Source: Oscillospiraceae bacterium (GTDB lineage Bacteria > Bacillota > Clostridia > Lachnospirales > Lachnospiraceae). Taken from it: a stretch of DNA of 45,810 nt. The stretch lies in the NCBI GenBank assembly GCA_021771715.1, contig JAETOO010000025.1, positions 1-45,810 of the forward strand. Reading direction: 5' to 3'. Below are positions 654-40,151 of the stretch, piece after piece. The notes beneath the pieces were generated by a model. That model worked only from the letters and a program-made list of their open reading frames with translations, was not told where the DNA came from and did not search any database. The translations under genes and the position numbers were made by a program. Each line of letters opens with the position of its first letter. The stretch's first letter is position 1.

Positions 654-870
654 TGCTTTCAGTTCTCCTTTCATTTCCACCTGTCTGTTTTTTGTGAGGA
701 GCGTTTTGCCGTCCCTCCCTCGGACCCGTTTCGTCCCCTTTTACAGCAGCCGAACCTCTGCCTCGCCACCCGCAGCAGCCGCCAGCTATCCGGAAATCCC
801 TGTCTGACTGCCGCTTTTGAGCAATAAAAAAACTGCGAAAAGGGACAAACTACAATCCAACTTAACGCAG

Positions 871-962
871 TAGCGGAAGCGATACCGTAACGCGGATTCA
901 AATCCTTCGTTCACACTTTAGACCTTCCCGTCATGTGACACTTAACGTACCGTATCTTCTCT
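871..962 (-). ncRNA. Tetrahydrofolate (THF) riboswitch upstream of fhs
   Basis: On the minus strand the RNA starts with AGAGAAGATAC, continues with the conserved CGUUAAGUG, a GGGAAGG loop, then GUGAACGAAG, and ends with GGUAUCGCUUCCGCU. This order matches the THF riboswitch class, which is known upstream of folate genes including fhs in Clostridia. The GATAC/GTATC strands close the outer helix. The family's loop pseudoknot, usually GGAUG with CAUCC, is replaced here by GGAAG (about 924-928) with CUUCC (875-879), a compensatory change. The aptamer ends more than 200 nt before the fhs start, so it does not sequester the ribosome site directly. A weak stem (ACTGCG/CGCAGT followed by seven T, about 825-870) could be a terminator platform. 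Confidence 0.85.
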
Positions 963-1026
963 ACTTTCATAGAAAAAATGTTGTAAAGAATCATCGGAAC
1001 AATCCTCAAATCCTTTAACCGTGGTC

Positions 1027-33353: not shown

Positions 33354-34988
33354 TCACTCGCGGTTTGCCACCAGCAGCGTCTCTCCGTTGCTCGCCTCCG
33401 CGATGTTCATGACATGGTTGACCACGCGCGTGAAGCTGTTCAGGGACTCGACAAAGGTGAGACCCTGCTCGAACGTGCAGGTCTTCTCACGCAGCCGGAC
33501 CATATGGTTCGTCTGGGCCTTCGCGACCAGCTTCATGATCGTGCGCTCCTTCAGCTTCAGCCCCATCCAGTCCTCCGCCGTGATCTGCTGGCGGTGGAAC
33601 ATCTCCATCGTCGTGACGAGCAGCTCCATATCGAGCTGATAGACCACACGCAGCTCTTCCTGCGCCGCGTCCGAGTAGCCCTGTCCCAGCTCCACGCACT
33701 TCTCCGTCTGTACCAGAATCTTGATCGCGTGGTCCCCGATCTGCTCGAGATCGTTGATGACGTGGAAGACACAGCCCATATAGTGCGACACGGACGGCGG
33801 CAGCTGCAGCGCGTTCACGCTCGTCAGATAATCCGTAATCTCCGAGGCCAGATAGTCGATGACCTGCTCGCGCTCCCGGATCGTGTTGGCGGACGTGATG
33901 TCATTTCTGATCAGGCCCTCAGCCGCATCCGAGATATTCTGACGGACAATGTTCGCCATACGCTCGACTTCCTTGCCCACCTGCAGCGACATAACTGCCG
34001 GGGAGCCGACCATGTTCGGGTCAATGTACTCGAAGCGGAATGCACTCTCGTGCGCCTGCTTCGGAATGATCTGGTACGTCCACTTTACGACCAGATTTAC
34101 GAGCGGCAGCAGCAGCACGCCTGTCACAACCTTGAAGATGATGTGGTAGACCGCAATCTGGAAGACCGGATTCGGAATGAACTGCTCGATCACCTGGGTG
34201 ATCGGTGAGAGCATCGTCAGCGGGATAAACAGAATCGCACCGACCACGTTAAAGATCAGGTAAATGCAGGCCGCGCGCTTCGCGTTGTTCTTCGCGTTGA
34301 GGGCGGAGAGCAGCGGGGGCGTCGAGGAGCCGACGTTGATTCCGCAGATGATGAACGCCGCAAAGTAGAGCGGCATCAGCCCCTGCATCGCGAGCGCCTG
34401 CAGGACGCCTACCGCGGCGGACGAGCTCTGAATCACCGCGCAGAGCACCACGCCGACCACAAAGCCGAGCAGCGGATTCTTCGCATTCAGTATAAATTCC
34501 TGGAAAGTCAGCGAATCTTTCAGAGGCGACATCGCCGCACTCATCGTATGTAAGCCCTGAAACAGCATACCAAAGCCCAGAATGACCTGGCCGATATAGC
34601 GGTTGCGCTTCCGCTTGCCGTACAGCATCAGCACCGCGCCCAGACAGATGCACACCGGCGCAATCCCGGACACATCCAGCGCGATCAGGATACTCGTGAT
34701 CGTCGTACCGATGTTGGCTCCGAAAATGACGCCCGTCGCCTGCGCCAGATCCATGATCTCCGCGTTGATAAAGCCCATGACCATGACCGTCGTCGCCGAC
34801 GAGGACTGAATCACGACTGTTACCAGAGCGCCGAGCAGGAAACCGATAAAGCGATTCCTCGTCAGCTTCTCCAGCAGATCCTTCATCTTCGGACCCGCCG
34901 CCAGCTCCAGTCCCTCGCCCATGTACTTCATGCCGAACAGGAACAGTCCCAGTCCACCGAACAATTCAATAATACTGTTAATCCCCAT
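33354..34988 (-). CDS. Na+/phosphate cotransporter with PhoU-like tail
   Basis: 544 residues. The N-terminal membrane part carries the duplicated Na/Pi signature QSSSAT (about residue 49) and QSSSAA (about 186), with about eight helices in two repeats; the C-terminal 200 residues are a helical PhoU-like domain. NptA-type proteins move phosphate with sodium. The ATG at 34988 begins the conserved MGINSIIELFGGLGLFLFGM; further upstream codons read through the promoter. The ribosome site is weak (AAGAGAA). A strong Pho-box-like array lies upstream. Confidence 0.93.
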   Translation of the reverse strand: MGINSIIELFGGLGLFLFGMKYMGEGLELAAGPKMKDLLEKLTRNRFIGFLLGALVTVVIQSSSATTVMVMGFINAEIMDLAQATGVIFGANIGTTITSILIALDVSGIAPVCICLGAVLMLYGKRKRNRYIGQVILGFGMLFQGLHTMSAAMSPLKDSLTFQEFILNAKNPLLGFVVGVVLCAVIQSSSAAVGVLQALAMQGLMPLYFAAFIICGINVGSSTPPLLSALNAKNNAKRAACIYLIFNVVGAILFIPLTMLSPITQVIEQFIPNPVFQIAVYHIIFKVVTGVLLLPLVNLVVKWTYQIIPKQAHESAFRFEYIDPNMVGSPAVMSLQVGKEVERMANIVRQNISDAAEGLIRNDITSANTIREREQVIDYLASEITDYLTSVNALQLPPSVSHYMGCVFHVINDLEQIGDHAIKILVQTEKCVELGQGYSDAAQEELRVVYQLDMELLVTTMEMFHRQQITAEDWMGLKLKERTIMKLVAKAQTNHMVRLREKTCTFEQGLTFVESLNSFTRVVNHVMNIAEASNGETLLVANRE

Positions 34989-35165
34989 ATGCAGTTTTCT
35001 CTTGGGAAGCCTGTGCGCTCCCCTTTCCTCCCTTACACAGATTCCCACCGCCCGCGGCCATACCACGCGCCGGGGACAACGGGCAATTCTTATGTGACTG
35101 ATGCACCGGTATACGACAGACACCGCACGGTTCGCGTTTTTCCCGCGAAATCCGCAAATTACATC

Positions 35166-35235
35166 AATATATAGCATAGCACATCTGTGTAAAGTTTGCA
35201 AAGGGTATGTAAACTTTTTGTAAGCTTTCTGTAAA
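35166..35235 (-). promoter_or_regulatory. Pho-box-like direct repeats and promoter of the Na/Pi gene
   Basis: On the minus strand TTTACA, CTTACA, TTTACA and TTTGCA repeat every 11 bp (plus-strand starts 35230, 35219, 35208, 35197), and a fifth TTTACA (35188-35193) can serve as the -35 of a promoter with TATATT (35166-35171). This matches the TT(A/C/T)ACA direct repeats bound by PhoP-type regulators and fits a phosphate transporter. Confidence 0.75.
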
Positions 35236-36075: not shown

Positions 36076-37254
36076 TCACGCCTCCAGCAGCAGTGTCAAC
36101 AGCGACTCAAATCCCGCTTCCTTCCACTCTCCCATCATGCGCTCCATCGCGAGCAGGTTCGGGTCCGAGTGCTCCAGTTCCCGGGAGTAGCGCCACGCCA
36201 GTTTCGCGCGGTCCTCAAACGAGAGCCGTCCGTCCTGCCGGATCCACTCGGCCAGCGCGAGCTCCCTGAGGATCAGCACGCTCGTCACCGACATCTGCAC
36301 CTTCTTCAGGCAGTCCCCGTCATAAACCGCGCCGCAGAAATACGTGAACAGAAAGTAGACCAGGATCTGCTCATACTCGGTCTCCCACTCCTTCTCGGCC
36401 TCCCGAAATTTCCACGCGGCCTCCAGATACCCCGCGCAGCCTCTGCCGTACAGCAGCCGCCTCCACTCCTGCAGATCCTCCCTCCACAGCGGGTCGAGCA
36501 CCTCAAAATCGCGCAGATAGTCCAGCTGCCGCCACCGCAGCGTCACCAGCTCATCCAGCCGCTCCCGGTTGCTCAAGCGCTCCGACTGCTCTGCGACGTA
36601 CCGCCGCAGCCGCTCTGTCAACCGCGCGTCCGCCCCCGGCCTCCGGTAGCGCTCCAGCACGCCCTCCACCTCAAAGAGACGCCGCGCCTGGATCCGGTTC
36701 TGCACATCGTGTGCCAGCGCCAGCAGCTTCGCCATGCGCAGCTCCAAGGCATCCGCACGGTTCTGCGCAAATGCCAGCAGCAGTTCTCTGCAATCCTGCA
36801 GTGCAGAGTACAGCAGATCGTCGAACTCCTCCTCCTGCTCTACGCCGCCCCGCTCGATACTGCGAAACGTCACGCGCTCTTTTCTGCCGAGGAGGAGCCG
36901 CGCGATCGCGGGACACGACAGCGACAGGGACAGCTCCCGCTCATTCTCGTAGACCTCCGTGTGCCTCGGATAATTCCTGCAGGTGCGGCACATCAGATCC
37001 GCCCCGGCCTCCAGGTGAATGTCACACAAATTCTGTTCATTCAGGAACGCACAGCGCCCCTCGTACTGCTCAAAGGTCTGCTGCTTCCAGTTAATTGCAT
37101 TTGCCAGGCGGCTGCCAAAGCTCCCTTTCAGGTTCCTGTACCGTCTCAGCGTCTTATCGTCAATCACAATCTGCCACCCTGCGCAGCAGGTAGCCGGGCA
37201 GTCCGATGCCAGGCACCGGAACTCCTGATAATAATCTGGTATGGTATAAATCAT
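36076..37254 (-). CDS. FliB-like (flagellin lysine-N-methylase family) protein
   Basis: 392 residues. The N-terminus has a Cys-rich cluster (FRCLASDCPATCCAGWQI, then CAFLNEQNLCDIH and MCRTCRNYPR), the hallmark of the family usually annotated as flagellin lysine methylase, expected to hold an iron-sulfur or metal centre. The long helical C-terminal half is also typical. No flagellar gene lies in the window, and homologues are common in non-motile gut Clostridia, so the substrate may not be flagellin. The ATG at 37254 follows GAGGGGAG. Confidence 0.82.
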   Translation of the reverse strand: MIYTIPDYYQEFRCLASDCPATCCAGWQIVIDDKTLRRYRNLKGSFGSRLANAINWKQQTFEQYEGRCAFLNEQNLCDIHLEAGADLMCRTCRNYPRHTEVYENERELSLSLSCPAIARLLLGRKERVTFRSIERGGVEQEEEFDDLLYSALQDCRELLLAFAQNRADALELRMAKLLALAHDVQNRIQARRLFEVEGVLERYRRPGADARLTERLRRYVAEQSERLSNRERLDELVTLRWRQLDYLRDFEVLDPLWREDLQEWRRLLYGRGCAGYLEAAWKFREAEKEWETEYEQILVYFLFTYFCGAVYDGDCLKKVQMSVTSVLILRELALAEWIRQDGRLSFEDRAKLAWRYSRELEHSDPNLLAMERMMGEWKEAGFESLLTLLLEA

Positions 37255-37548
37255 GTATACTCCCCTCGATCCTTTTCCTTCGTCCGCCGGCGGCAGCGGA
37301 TCACCTCTGCCGTTCTGAAAACGCACGATCACTCTGGTCTGCAGCCCTGCCGGGGTGCAAACTGTGACATTTATTGTAACACAATCCTCCTGGGATTGGA
37401 ACCTTCTTTCGGTCTATTTCAAAGCGGATTTGAGATTCAAATGCTTCCCCAGCTGTCATTTGCGAATCCCAATTTTTGTGTAATCGCAGTCAGCACTGGG
37501 TATTGTTTTTCCACCGGACGAGAAGATTACAGGGCCAGACATAATTTG
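37255..37548. other. Spacer between oadB-like and fliB-like genes
   Basis: About 290 bp without a gene. A possible weak promoter for the fliB-like gene is TTCCAA (37396-37401), 17 bp, TACAAT (37373-37378) on the minus strand. I see no clear terminator for the oadB-like gene. Confidence 0.4.
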
Positions 37549-38790
37549 CTACGAGCGCGCGAGAAGCTGGATTGCTCTTACGACCACGAGGATCAGGAGC
37601 ACCGCCGCGAAGATTCCTCCCATGCCCTTCCACATGAGGTCGACCGCGTTCTTTGCGCCTCCTGACGTTACCAGGCGGACCACCAGGCCGCCTGCGACGA
37701 CCGAGGCCACCTGACCTGATACATTTGCGCCCGCTGCATGCATCAGAAGTACATTCGTCGGATCCTCCGCGATCGCCATTTTCTGTATGACGCGCGAGGA
37801 CATCGGAAACGCAGAGATGCCGGCCGCCCCGATCATCGGGTTTACCTTTTTCTTCAGGAACAGATTCATGAACTTCGCCAGCAGGACGCCGCCGATCGTG
37901 TCCATCACAAAGGCGAACAGGCCGATCGCGAGGATCAGAAGCGTCTCCCAGGTCACAAATGCTTCCGCGCGCATGCTGTAGGAGATTGTAATCCCCAGCA
38001 GCAGCGTGATCAAGTTCGCGAGTACATTCTGCGCCGTCTCAGACATCACCTGCAGGACACCGCACTCACGGATCAGGTTGCCGAACATCAGAAATCCGAC
38101 CAGCGCCACCGACGACGGCGCGATCAGCCCGACAATCATCGTCACCAGGATCGGAAACGCAATGCGCATCTGTCTCGTGACTCCCTGGGGCTCGTAGTCC
38201 ATGTGGATCTGCCGCTCCTTTTTCGTCGTCACCAGACGGATGGCCAGCGGCTGGATGACCGGCACCAGCGCCATATACGAGTAGGCTGCGACCGCGATCG
38301 CCCCGACGTACTTCGACTTGAGCACCTGGGAGACCAGAATCGCGGTCGGCCCGTCCGCCGCCCCGATAATTCCCGCCGCCGCGGCGTCCCTGAACCCAAA
38401 GCCCAGCAGCGACGCCAGTATAATTGCCGCAAAGATGCCAAACTGCGCGCCGGCGCCGAACAGGAACATCTGCGGGCACGACAGCAGCGGCCCGAAGTCA
38501 ATCATCGCGCCGATGCCGATGAACAGCAGGATCGGCATGGCCTCCGATGCCTCGATACACGTCTCAAACAGCCATTGGATGATTCCGTTTGTCTCCCCGA
38601 CACCGGAGAGCACCTGATTGATCGCTCCGCTCGCCGGGAGATTCACCAGAATCGCGCCAAAACCCATCGGCAGCAGCAGAGCCGGCTCATAGTCCTTTTT
38701 TACAGCGAGATAGATCAGCAAAATTCCGATCCCGTACATTACCACCTGTTTCCAGGTCAACAGTAGAATCCCTTCCAGCAAAAATTCCAT
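37549..38790 (-). CDS. OadB/GcdB-type Na+-pumping decarboxylase beta subunit, stand-alone
   Basis: 413 residues with about 11 membrane segments. The family's ion-site motif GAADGPTAI (about residue 145) and conserved GFGFRDAAAAGIIG, SYMALVP and SGQVASVVAGG are intact. OadB/GcdB/MmdB subunits couple decarboxylation of a biotin-bound acid to Na+ export and normally need alpha, gamma and biotin-carrier partners. None is present nearby. The ATG at 38790 has AAAGGAGTGG upstream. The gene lies behind a yybP-ykoY-type riboswitch, which normally controls manganese-export or homeostasis genes, so its role here may be ion transport without a decarboxylase. Confidence 0.9.
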   Translation of the reverse strand: MEFLLEGILLLTWKQVVMYGIGILLIYLAVKKDYEPALLLPMGFGAILVNLPASGAINQVLSGVGETNGIIQWLFETCIEASEAMPILLFIGIGAMIDFGPLLSCPQMFLFGAGAQFGIFAAIILASLLGFGFRDAAAAGIIGAADGPTAILVSQVLKSKYVGAIAVAAYSYMALVPVIQPLAIRLVTTKKERQIHMDYEPQGVTRQMRIAFPILVTMIVGLIAPSSVALVGFLMFGNLIRECGVLQVMSETAQNVLANLITLLLGITISYSMRAEAFVTWETLLILAIGLFAFVMDTIGGVLLAKFMNLFLKKKVNPMIGAAGISAFPMSSRVIQKMAIAEDPTNVLLMHAAGANVSGQVASVVAGGLVVRLVTSGGAKNAVDLMWKGMGGIFAAVLLILVVVRAIQLLARS

Positions 38791-38869: not shown

Positions 38870-39003
38870 GAAAATGAAAAGAGACCCTTATCACAGCATA
38901 ATCACTGTGATAAGAGTCTCGCTATTTCAATTCCTGCCGGATAACAGCGTTATCGTACTGACGGCCTGAATCCACATCGCTGTGGAAGCTACTCCCTCTT
39001 ACC
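38870..39003 (-). ncRNA. yybP-ykoY (Mn2+) riboswitch with terminator platform
   Basis: On the minus strand P1 is GGTAAGAG (38996-39003) with CTCTTATC (38909-38916). Inside are the hallmark GGAGUAGC after the 5' strand and GCGAGA before the 3' strand, a TCCACA/TGTGGA hairpin, and GUCAGUACG followed by a GATAAC/GTTATC hairpin and CCGGC. These match the yybP-ykoY consensus. The 3' P1 strand is also the 5' arm of a terminator (CTTATCACAG 38887-38896 with CTGTGATAAG 38905-38914, extended by GAGAC/GTCTC, then TCTTTTCATTTT). The two folds exclude each other, predicting transcription on when Mn2+ is bound. Confidence 0.85.
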
Positions 39004-39040
39004 GGAAACAACTCCATGTTCCTATGATTTCCACACCACC

Positions 39041-39069
39041 AGTATAACAGCCAATCGCTCGTTGTTCAA
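39041..39069 (-). promoter_or_regulatory. Promoter of the riboswitch-oadB transcript
   Basis: On the minus strand TTGAAC (39064-39069), a 17-bp spacer and TATACT (39041-39046). The -35 box overlaps the stop codon of the preceding gene. Transcription would start about 30 nt before the riboswitch. Confidence 0.75.
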
Positions 39070-40151
39070 CCACTTTTTGCATCGTTTTCCACCATTTCCT
39101 GATAAGGCCAATCCAAAATACCGCCAAATTCCAGTACATTCTCATATCCCATGTCCGCCAGCTTCTGTGCCGCCTGTTTGCTGCGGTTGCCGCTCCTGCA
39201 GTACACCAGGATTTTCTGCTTCTTATCCGGAAGTTCCGCCGGCTCCTCCACGATCTCCTCATTAGGGAGGCAGATTGACTCTTTGATATGCCCGGAATCA
39301 TACTCTTCCTGCGTCCGCACATCCAAAATGCAGATATCCGCTTCCTCATCCATGATCTTTTTCGCTTCCTGTGCAGTAATCTGCTGATAGCTCATGTCCG
39401 TTTCCTCCTGCTTCGTTTCTTTCTTCCCATCTATCATCTGCGTAACCGCTTCCACGGTCTGCTCTTGCTGCTCTTCTGAAGAAATTCTGGCTTCGCCATC
39501 TCCTTTTTGCTTCCCATAATTTCCAAAACCCGCATGGTTTCCGCCTTCTATACAGAGTTCTGTATAACCTGCAGGCATGAGCGCTCTTCCTTCCTCCAGC
39601 TTTTCCATATTCAGGACGCCGTCTTCACTTCCATATACAGATAAAACAGAAATCTGCGCTCCTTTCAGATCCCTGGTTGGATACGCAGCCAGCAGGATCA
39701 GTCCATCGAAACGTTCCGGATGCCCTGCGGCATAAGAGGCCGCCATCGCCCCGCCTAAAGAATGTCCTGCCAGATACCAGTGCTCATATTCATAGGTTTC
39801 CATAATGTCTTCTGCTCTATTCTGTCCCAAAATTGCAAGATTACACGGCATTTTAATTAGGAAACAATCTATGCCCTGTTCTGCCAGTCCATAGAAAAGC
39901 GGCAGATACGCCGTATACTCCACCTTTGCCCCCGGATAGAAAACGACTGCAGCCTCTTCTCCGGGTCCGTCTACAAATAAGCCATCCGCTATTTCCGATA
40001 CGGCCACCTGTTCCTTTCCCTGCAGATATTTATTTACACGCTCATCACGATGGTAATAATCATTCACATAGAAAAACGCTGACAACATAACGATCAAAAT
40101 AAGCCCCATTACTGCCGCAGCAATTTTCCTGCCCTTTTTCTTCTTTATCAT
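39066..40151 (-). CDS. Alpha/beta-hydrolase fused to a rhodanese domain
   Basis: 361 residues. An N-terminal membrane anchor or signal (about 9-29) leads into an alpha/beta-hydrolase domain with the nucleophile elbow GHSLGG (Ser131) and a late His in GGNHAGFGNYG. A linker rich in Glu/Lys/Gln joins it to a rhodanese domain (about 253-361) with active-site loop CRSGNRS. At the junction AGGAGG stands 8 nt before an in-frame ATG (39395), exactly a normal gene start, so the rhodanese may also be made alone. If the hydrolase is exported, the fused rhodanese would be outside too, which is unusual. It is followed on this strand by the riboswitch-oadB unit. Confidence 0.85.
   Translation of the reverse strand: MIKKKKGRKIAAAVMGLILIVMLSAFFYVNDYYHRDERVNKYLQGKEQVAVSEIADGLFVDGPGEEAAVVFYPGAKVEYTAYLPLFYGLAEQGIDCFLIKMPCNLAILGQNRAEDIMETYEYEHWYLAGHSLGGAMAASYAAGHPERFDGLILLAAYPTRDLKGAQISVLSVYGSEDGVLNMEKLEEGRALMPAGYTELCIEGGNHAGFGNYGKQKGDGEARISSEEQQEQTVEAVTQMIDGKKETKQEETDMSYQQITAQEAKKIMDEEADICILDVRTQEEYDSGHIKESICLPNEEIVEEPAELPDKKQKILVYCRSGNRSKQAAQKLADMGYENVLEFGGILDWPYQEMVENDAKSG

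Follow-up and report, generated by a model that had tools for sequence, protein, structure and literature searches.

The window, as we call the whole 45,810-nt stretch of DNA that was analyzed, carries on its minus strand an oadB-like gene preceded by a structured leader. The features of leader and gene are as follows.

39041..39069, minus strand: promoter-like site, TTGAAC-17-TATACT, with TG ahead of the second hexamer (consensus scan)
38909..39003, minus strand: type A Mn2+-type riboswitch aptamer, a three-way junction with P1.1, P1.2, P2 and P3 (covariance model R1, 78.7 bits; covariation)
38990..38995, minus strand: 5′ strand of loop L1, GGAGUA (alignment A1; invariant in 28 rows)
38954..38961, minus strand: loop L3, UCAGUACG (alignment A1)
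38910..38916, minus strand: 3′ strand of switch helix P1.1, common to the aptamer and the 5′ arm of the terminator
38881..38920, minus strand: intrinsic terminator hairpin of 18 pairs, then TTTTCATTTT (consensus scan)
37549..38790, minus strand: OadB (clade A) with a fused C-terminal helix, 413 aa, ATG at 38790 after AAGGAG (PF03977, TIGR01109)
37552..37653, minus strand: C-terminal OadG-like helix, residues about 380 to 413; a separate ORF in relatives

Just downstream of oadB lies a flagellin lysine-N-methylase-like gene (36076-37332, minus strand; NF038110, 310 bits, cut-off 85). The window also holds a 361-aa ORF in which an alpha/beta hydrolase domain and a rhodanese domain are joined (39066-40151, minus strand) and a tetrahydrofolate riboswitch (869-965, minus strand; 59.6 bits, cut-off 36).

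The preliminary description had recognized hallmark yybP-ykoY sequences in this leader, and the motifs GGAGUAGC, GUCAGUACG and GCGAGA were indeed read on the minus strand, with P1 closed by UAAGAG/CUCUUA. A consensus scan found three promoter-like sites and one terminator-like site, against 0.3 of each expected from shuffles, and the fold of leader plus terminator (z, −5.46) was far under shuffles. As had been described, the 3′ strand of the P1 helix doubles as a terminator arm: positions 38916-38910 of P1.1 lie within the 5′ arm of the hairpin at 38920-38881, so that switch helix and terminator are laid out to compete. Membership in the yybP-ykoY family as Rfam models it did not hold up. Neither the leader nor the window's whole genome was matched by RF00080 at E ≤ 10; in the same genome scan, 9 of 14 control genomes matched, two of them over the cut-off. 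Within Rfam, SSRC10 (RF02617) came nearest, matching the leader at 31.1 bits (E = 2.7e-4), under that family's cut-off of 56.

Since scans of the leader with the whole of Rfam and with RF00080 gave no match to an Mn2+ family, we built a covariance model, R1, from an alignment (A1) of 28 type A leaders from OadB relatives, the window's included. The RNAalifold consensus of these leaders comprised P1.1, L1, P1.2, P2, P3.1, L3 and P3.2 around a three-way junction, with a UUGAAA linker in place of a fourth stem. Twenty-three of its 31 pairs had changes on both sides, and compensatory changes were present in all five helices. Pairing was found in 93.0% of pairing cells (78.0% in shuffles), double-sided cells numbered 143 (45.8 in shuffles) and the covariation score was 0.489 (0.208 in shuffles); none of 500 shuffles reached any of these values, in a test somewhat favored by deriving the structure from the same 28 sequences. 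Slid versions of the alignment gave 37 to 44% pairing. R1 found a single element in the window, whose leader is among its training rows. On the evidence of this model and of covariation, the leader is a genuine structured element. Other oadB leaders form a group of their own, type B, which has the loop AUCAACAUAC and is nearer to RF00080 than type A. When orthologous oadB loci were searched with RF00080, 3 of 16 matched (33.6, 23.9 and 20.5 bits), all of type B and all under the cut-off of 45, and none of 20 loci with type A elements matched at E ≤ 0.05. Because RF00080 does not match it, we describe the window element as working like yybP-ykoY but keep it out of that family.

The gene behind the leader encodes OadB, as it matched PF03977 (482 bits) and TIGR01109 (387 bits) over both cut-offs; its fold was taken from its match to PDB 6iva (296 bits). 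A search of 299 genomes of the family placed close relatives, 58 to 79% identical to the window protein, at 63 places including the window's; other OadB proteins among the matches listed were 44 to 50% identical. Partial copies in two genomes (G205 and G227) were left out, as was an additional fragment in G048. The resulting 61 loci, together with 80 named loci (mostly from Lachnospiraceae, also from Oscillospiraceae, Peptoniphilus and others), made up 141 clade A loci with 129 distinct proteins, some genomes being in both sets. In a FastTree phylogeny of these 129 and 20 canonical sequences, clade A formed one side of a branch with a support of 100. One of the 21 canonical loci (L281, a 6-aa extract) was omitted from the tree and from the residue comparison.

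The pairing of riboswitch and oadB, noted at first for this one gene, proved to recur across Clostridia. An element lay upstream in 83 of the 141 clade A loci (34/61 and 49/80 in the two sets), in 75 just upstream, by R1 or motif, and in 8 further upstream on the same strand; 3 loci had an element on the other strand, and in 55 none was found by R1 or motif. By contrast, none of the 21 canonical oadB loci had an R1 match at E ≤ 10. R1 scored at least 25 bits within 450 nt on the same strand in 59 matches, 28 of these being training rows. At least 21 changes are needed to place leader presence on the tree, which implies repeated gain or loss of the association. Four loci have the element at the front of a CNNM-oadB operon, the gene names being given from sequence likeness. 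The order element, Na/Pi-symporter-like gene (likewise named), oadB was seen at L060 and L116, which are one genome seen twice. The window has a gene of this type too, a Na/Pi cotransporter with a PhoU domain at 33354-35201 (minus strand).

The residues of OadB known for Na+ binding, and Arg389 with them, are retained in clade A. Asp203, Ser382, Arg389 and Asn412 correspond to D146, S326, R333 and N356 of the window protein and are at least 97% conserved in both groups. Some other positions are conserved at 90% or more within each group (20 canonical sequences) yet hold different residues in the two; they include A144 (Gly in canonical OadB), F328 (Val), N309 (Cys), I97 (Thr) and Q360 (Val). 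Three of these are close in sequence to ion-site residues, and they would fit, rather than demonstrate, an altered cation site.

The gene had been described as a stand-alone OadB, and we at first considered a strictly solitary protein; this idea was changed once a small companion appeared. A short hydrophobic ORF with a median length of 44 residues and the consensus ALEIMgkGMxGIF, which we call mini-OadG, follows clade A oadB in 133 of the 137 loci with room for it. The motif was drawn up after the ORFs had been seen; its strict first form found 66 and its widened form 133, and the widened form also occurred in 37 of 665 random windows. In the window the helix is fused to the C terminus of OadB, so its gene does not encode a bare OadB. 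The fusion is the sole case among the 141 loci and may reflect a stop codon lost in one assembly. The relation of mini-OadG to OadG appears modest: a profile comparison gave E = 2.1e-5 with a probability of 77, PF04277 matched at 26.5 bits in G065 and more weakly in G271 and G174, and the C-terminal helix in the window had no Pfam match. Judged by length, mini-OadG ends just past the helix and is without the cytoplasmic tail that binds OadA. In a published structure of oxaloacetate decarboxylase (OAD), gamma residues 2 to 43 were seen against the beta subunit, and removal of gamma residues 61 to 84 from the Salmonella typhimurium enzyme spared beta-gamma binding and severely reduced copurified alpha (PMC7274780). 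Mini-OadG would thus correspond, by length, to the beta-side part of OadG alone.

The absence of decarboxylase partners beside the gene, by contrast with its solitary status, was borne out. In tblastn searches (E ≤ 1e-6), no carboxyltransferase, OadG, biotin carrier or OadA was found in the whole window or in the flanks of the 141 clade A loci, 106 of which extended 4 kb or more from oadB in both directions. The queries came from contig C4 of the window's genome. At canonical loci the carboxyltransferase and biotin carrier were found in 21 of 21, one locus being the source of the queries, and a full OadG in 16 of 21. A single OadG and a single OadA are encoded in the window's genome (97.7% complete); the two lie on C4, where they form a complete decarboxylase operon with its own beta subunit.

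These distributions bear on an alternative that we regard as unlikely, namely that clade A OadB serves in trans as another beta subunit for a decarboxylase encoded elsewhere (on C4 in this genome). Mn2+ would then do no more than time its expression, for instance so as to provide Na+-coupled exporters with a stronger Na+ gradient. The retained Na+-binding residues and Arg389 speak for this, as does the presence of Na/Ca exchangers in the same regulon. So do three genomes (G271, G065 and G117; loci L304, L305 and L306) in which an operon of MmdA, an OadG-type protein (in G271 just a weak profile match), biotin carrier and OadA lacks a beta gene and the clade A protein is the only full-length OadB. 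In these three it could serve as the beta subunit, and they led us to reject the notion that genomes without canonical OadB are without a decarboxylase. Against the alternative, no partner gene lies near any of the 141 loci, the window's genome holds a complete operon with its own beta, and mini-OadG is without the tail whose loss strongly lowers alpha binding in S. typhimurium (PMC7274780). Moreover, since 3 of 13 genomes without OadB hold OadA-sized proteins, beta-less operons may work without beta.

R1 matched 136 of the 299 family genomes at E ≤ 0.05 and 58 of 398 genomes of the phylum at E ≤ 0.01. Downstream genes were examined at 90 places among the matches listed, ordered by score, with a few skipped because they were at a contig edge or already in the set. 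Seven, including the oadB operons of G152 and G031, gave no gene by the rule used. The 83 assignable genes comprised 42 P-type cation ATPases, 13 Na/Ca exchangers, 8 OadB, 5 SPFH-domain proteins, 3 CNNM, 1 MntP and 11 others. Groups were made by sequence clustering, and Pfam was run on ten proteins, MntP included, eight of them from named groups. A comparison of R1 matches with mntP places gave, among the matches listed, at least 10 elements that lie immediately upstream of mntP; one genome (G174) has one element before mntP and another before oadB, and one mntP leader (L247) matched SSRC10 at 43.2 bits. MntP itself is present in 253 of the 299 genomes, including the window's. There is accordingly no pattern of OadB replacing MntP, and the idea of OadB as an MntP substitute was rejected.

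The second element in the window's genome lies at C2:168180-168277, where the longest of the nearby ORFs is flotillin-like and begins 583 nt further on. This element is one of several type A elements before flotillin-like/SPFH genes (L206, L217, L242, L259 and L260), a group in which Pfam was run on L206 and L217. Type A elements also preceded a CitMHS/ArsB-like transporter (L245) and an AI-2E family transporter (L201), both unexpected for an Mn2+ switch. At L265 (1352-1555), a T-box leader lies downstream of a Na/Ca exchanger gene that itself follows a type A element.

The ligand is probably Mn2+, since elements of this kind precede mntP and the A of L3 is kept. L1 (GGGAGUAG) and L3 with this A are invariant columns of A1. 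Published Mn-sensing loops read UCA41AUUC in Lactococcus lactis and ACA48UACU in Xanthomonas oryzae, with an invariant A (PMC6754395). In our own alignment, the A at 38959 would be the counterpart of A41/A48. The type A loop is mostly UCA-GUAC and the type B loop ACAUAC, and both types appear to keep the Mn-sensing A, type A in the manner of L. lactis.

The preliminary description also predicted that Mn2+ binding turns the gene on. The layout on which this depends, an overlap of P1.1 with the terminator, was found. In the L. lactis switch, Mn2+ stabilizes P1.1 and thereby keeps its 3′ segment out of the terminator (PMC11087558). Because the window leader shares this layout, Mn2+ should turn its gene on, although the direction itself is a prediction, and one review describes the class as OFF switches (PMC11477304), which is at odds with our reading.

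A variant of the Mn2+ fold that senses a different ion, for instance Ca2+, Mg2+ or Na+, seems quite improbable. Such a variant would account for the missing RF00080 match, for the presence of Na/Ca exchangers and Ca2+/Mn2+-type P-type ATPases among the targets, and for the best Rfam match, SSRC10, preceding a gene annotated as a calcium transporter (PMC3675131). It is harder to reconcile with the elements before mntP (at least 10) and with retention of the invariant A that gives Mn2+ specificity, and regulation of a Streptococcus Mn2+/Ca2+ ATPase by an Mn-sensing riboswitch has been published. That the leader is no more than a terminator, or a small RNA that no ligand controls, as the small-RNA name of that Rfam family might suggest, has hardly any plausibility given compensatory changes in every helix, invariant loop letters and recurrence before cation transporter genes.

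We therefore favor, with a probability of about 0.58, a reading in which the leader is an Mn2+-sensing ON switch of the yybP-ykoY kind and its target is a decarboxylase-free OadB/mini-OadG cation transporter. Bound Mn2+ would dock L1 against L3 and stabilize P1.1, whose 3′ strand would be kept from the terminator so that oadB is read. The OadB/mini-OadG unit, without alpha subunit, biotin carrier or alpha-recruiting tail, would stand outside any active decarboxylase and be made in Mn2+ excess alongside MntP, P-type ATPases, Na/Ca exchangers and CNNM proteins. OAD_beta is placed within the CPA/AT superfamily of transporters (PMC8396727); this membership and the switch layout are why we read the unit as a carrier freed from decarboxylation. 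As a first guess, it would couple Mn2+ efflux to Na+, Mn2+ export by the unit being no more than plausible. The earlier suggestion that solitary OadB proteins act as metal-responsive cation transporters thus survives as the best reading of the regulon, because mntP, P-type ATPases and Na/Ca exchangers also lie behind elements of the same type; transport by the protein itself is the predicted part of it. We counted against this explanation the RF00080 mismatch, the 55 of 141 loci in which no element was found, the retained ion-site residues and Arg389, the beta-less operons in three genomes, the presence of MntP in 253 of 299 genomes and the OFF label of the review. A bolder version is possible but rather doubtful: that units of this kind make up a new family, either exporting Mn2+ or exchanging it for Na+. 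In this version a subunit of an Na+ pump would have lost its decarboxylase, retained just the beta-side part of OadG and come repeatedly under an Mn2+-type riboswitch subclass that Rfam misses.

These data tie a widespread OadB clade, whose members match decarboxylase-subunit families, to metal homeostasis, with a function that is directly testable. That clade A OadB travels with an OadG-like single-helix ORF of about 44 residues is new here. OadB had been called an unfamiliar target for this riboswitch class. By title and abstract, we found no report of a yybP-ykoY-type riboswitch with OadB, to which the target lists in PMC4376352, PMC4703321 and PMC6649816 may add; OadB-type annotations are nevertheless known behind another ion riboswitch, Na+-I, which has oxaloacetate decarboxylase genes among its targets (PMC9337991). 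Lachnospiraceae hold an Mn2+-type riboswitch subclass that the Rfam model misses, and their regulons are consequently under-annotated. If the favored reading is true, a former pump subunit now serves as a carrier with a minimal partner, which would make it a clear example of a CPA-superfamily protein that has switched to another energy source.

Among known systems, the element most resembles the yybP-ykoY Mn2+ riboswitch of the L. lactis yoaB type. The two are alike in L1, in an L3 UCA with the Mn-sensing A, in a P1.1 switch helix that overlaps the terminator and in having Mn2+ export genes among their targets. They differ in that the published junction is four-way whereas the consensus of our 28 leaders is three-way, and in that the element described here has no RF00080 match and frequently has the OadB clade as its target. 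SSRC10, which scores best in Rfam for both the window leader and an mntP leader, has a similar L3 and terminator, but it is described as a small RNA, located in Streptococcus pyogenes between SPyM3_0439 and the putative calcium transporter gene SPyM3_0440 (PMC3675131), and our element scores under its cut-off. The protein, for its part, differs from the beta subunit of the oxaloacetate decarboxylase Na+ pump (6iva/6iww) in having no alpha subunit or biotin carrier nearby, a gamma subunit cut to a helix and a metal-type riboswitch. It is like that pump in belonging to the OadB family, in keeping the Na+ residues and in having an OadG-like helix beside OadB. The Na+-I (DUF1646) riboswitch family is included in Rfam. 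It is another RNA, and it was not among the Rfam matches of the window leader at E ≤ 10. Like the element described here, it is an ion riboswitch that precedes decarboxylase-annotated genes (PMC9337991).
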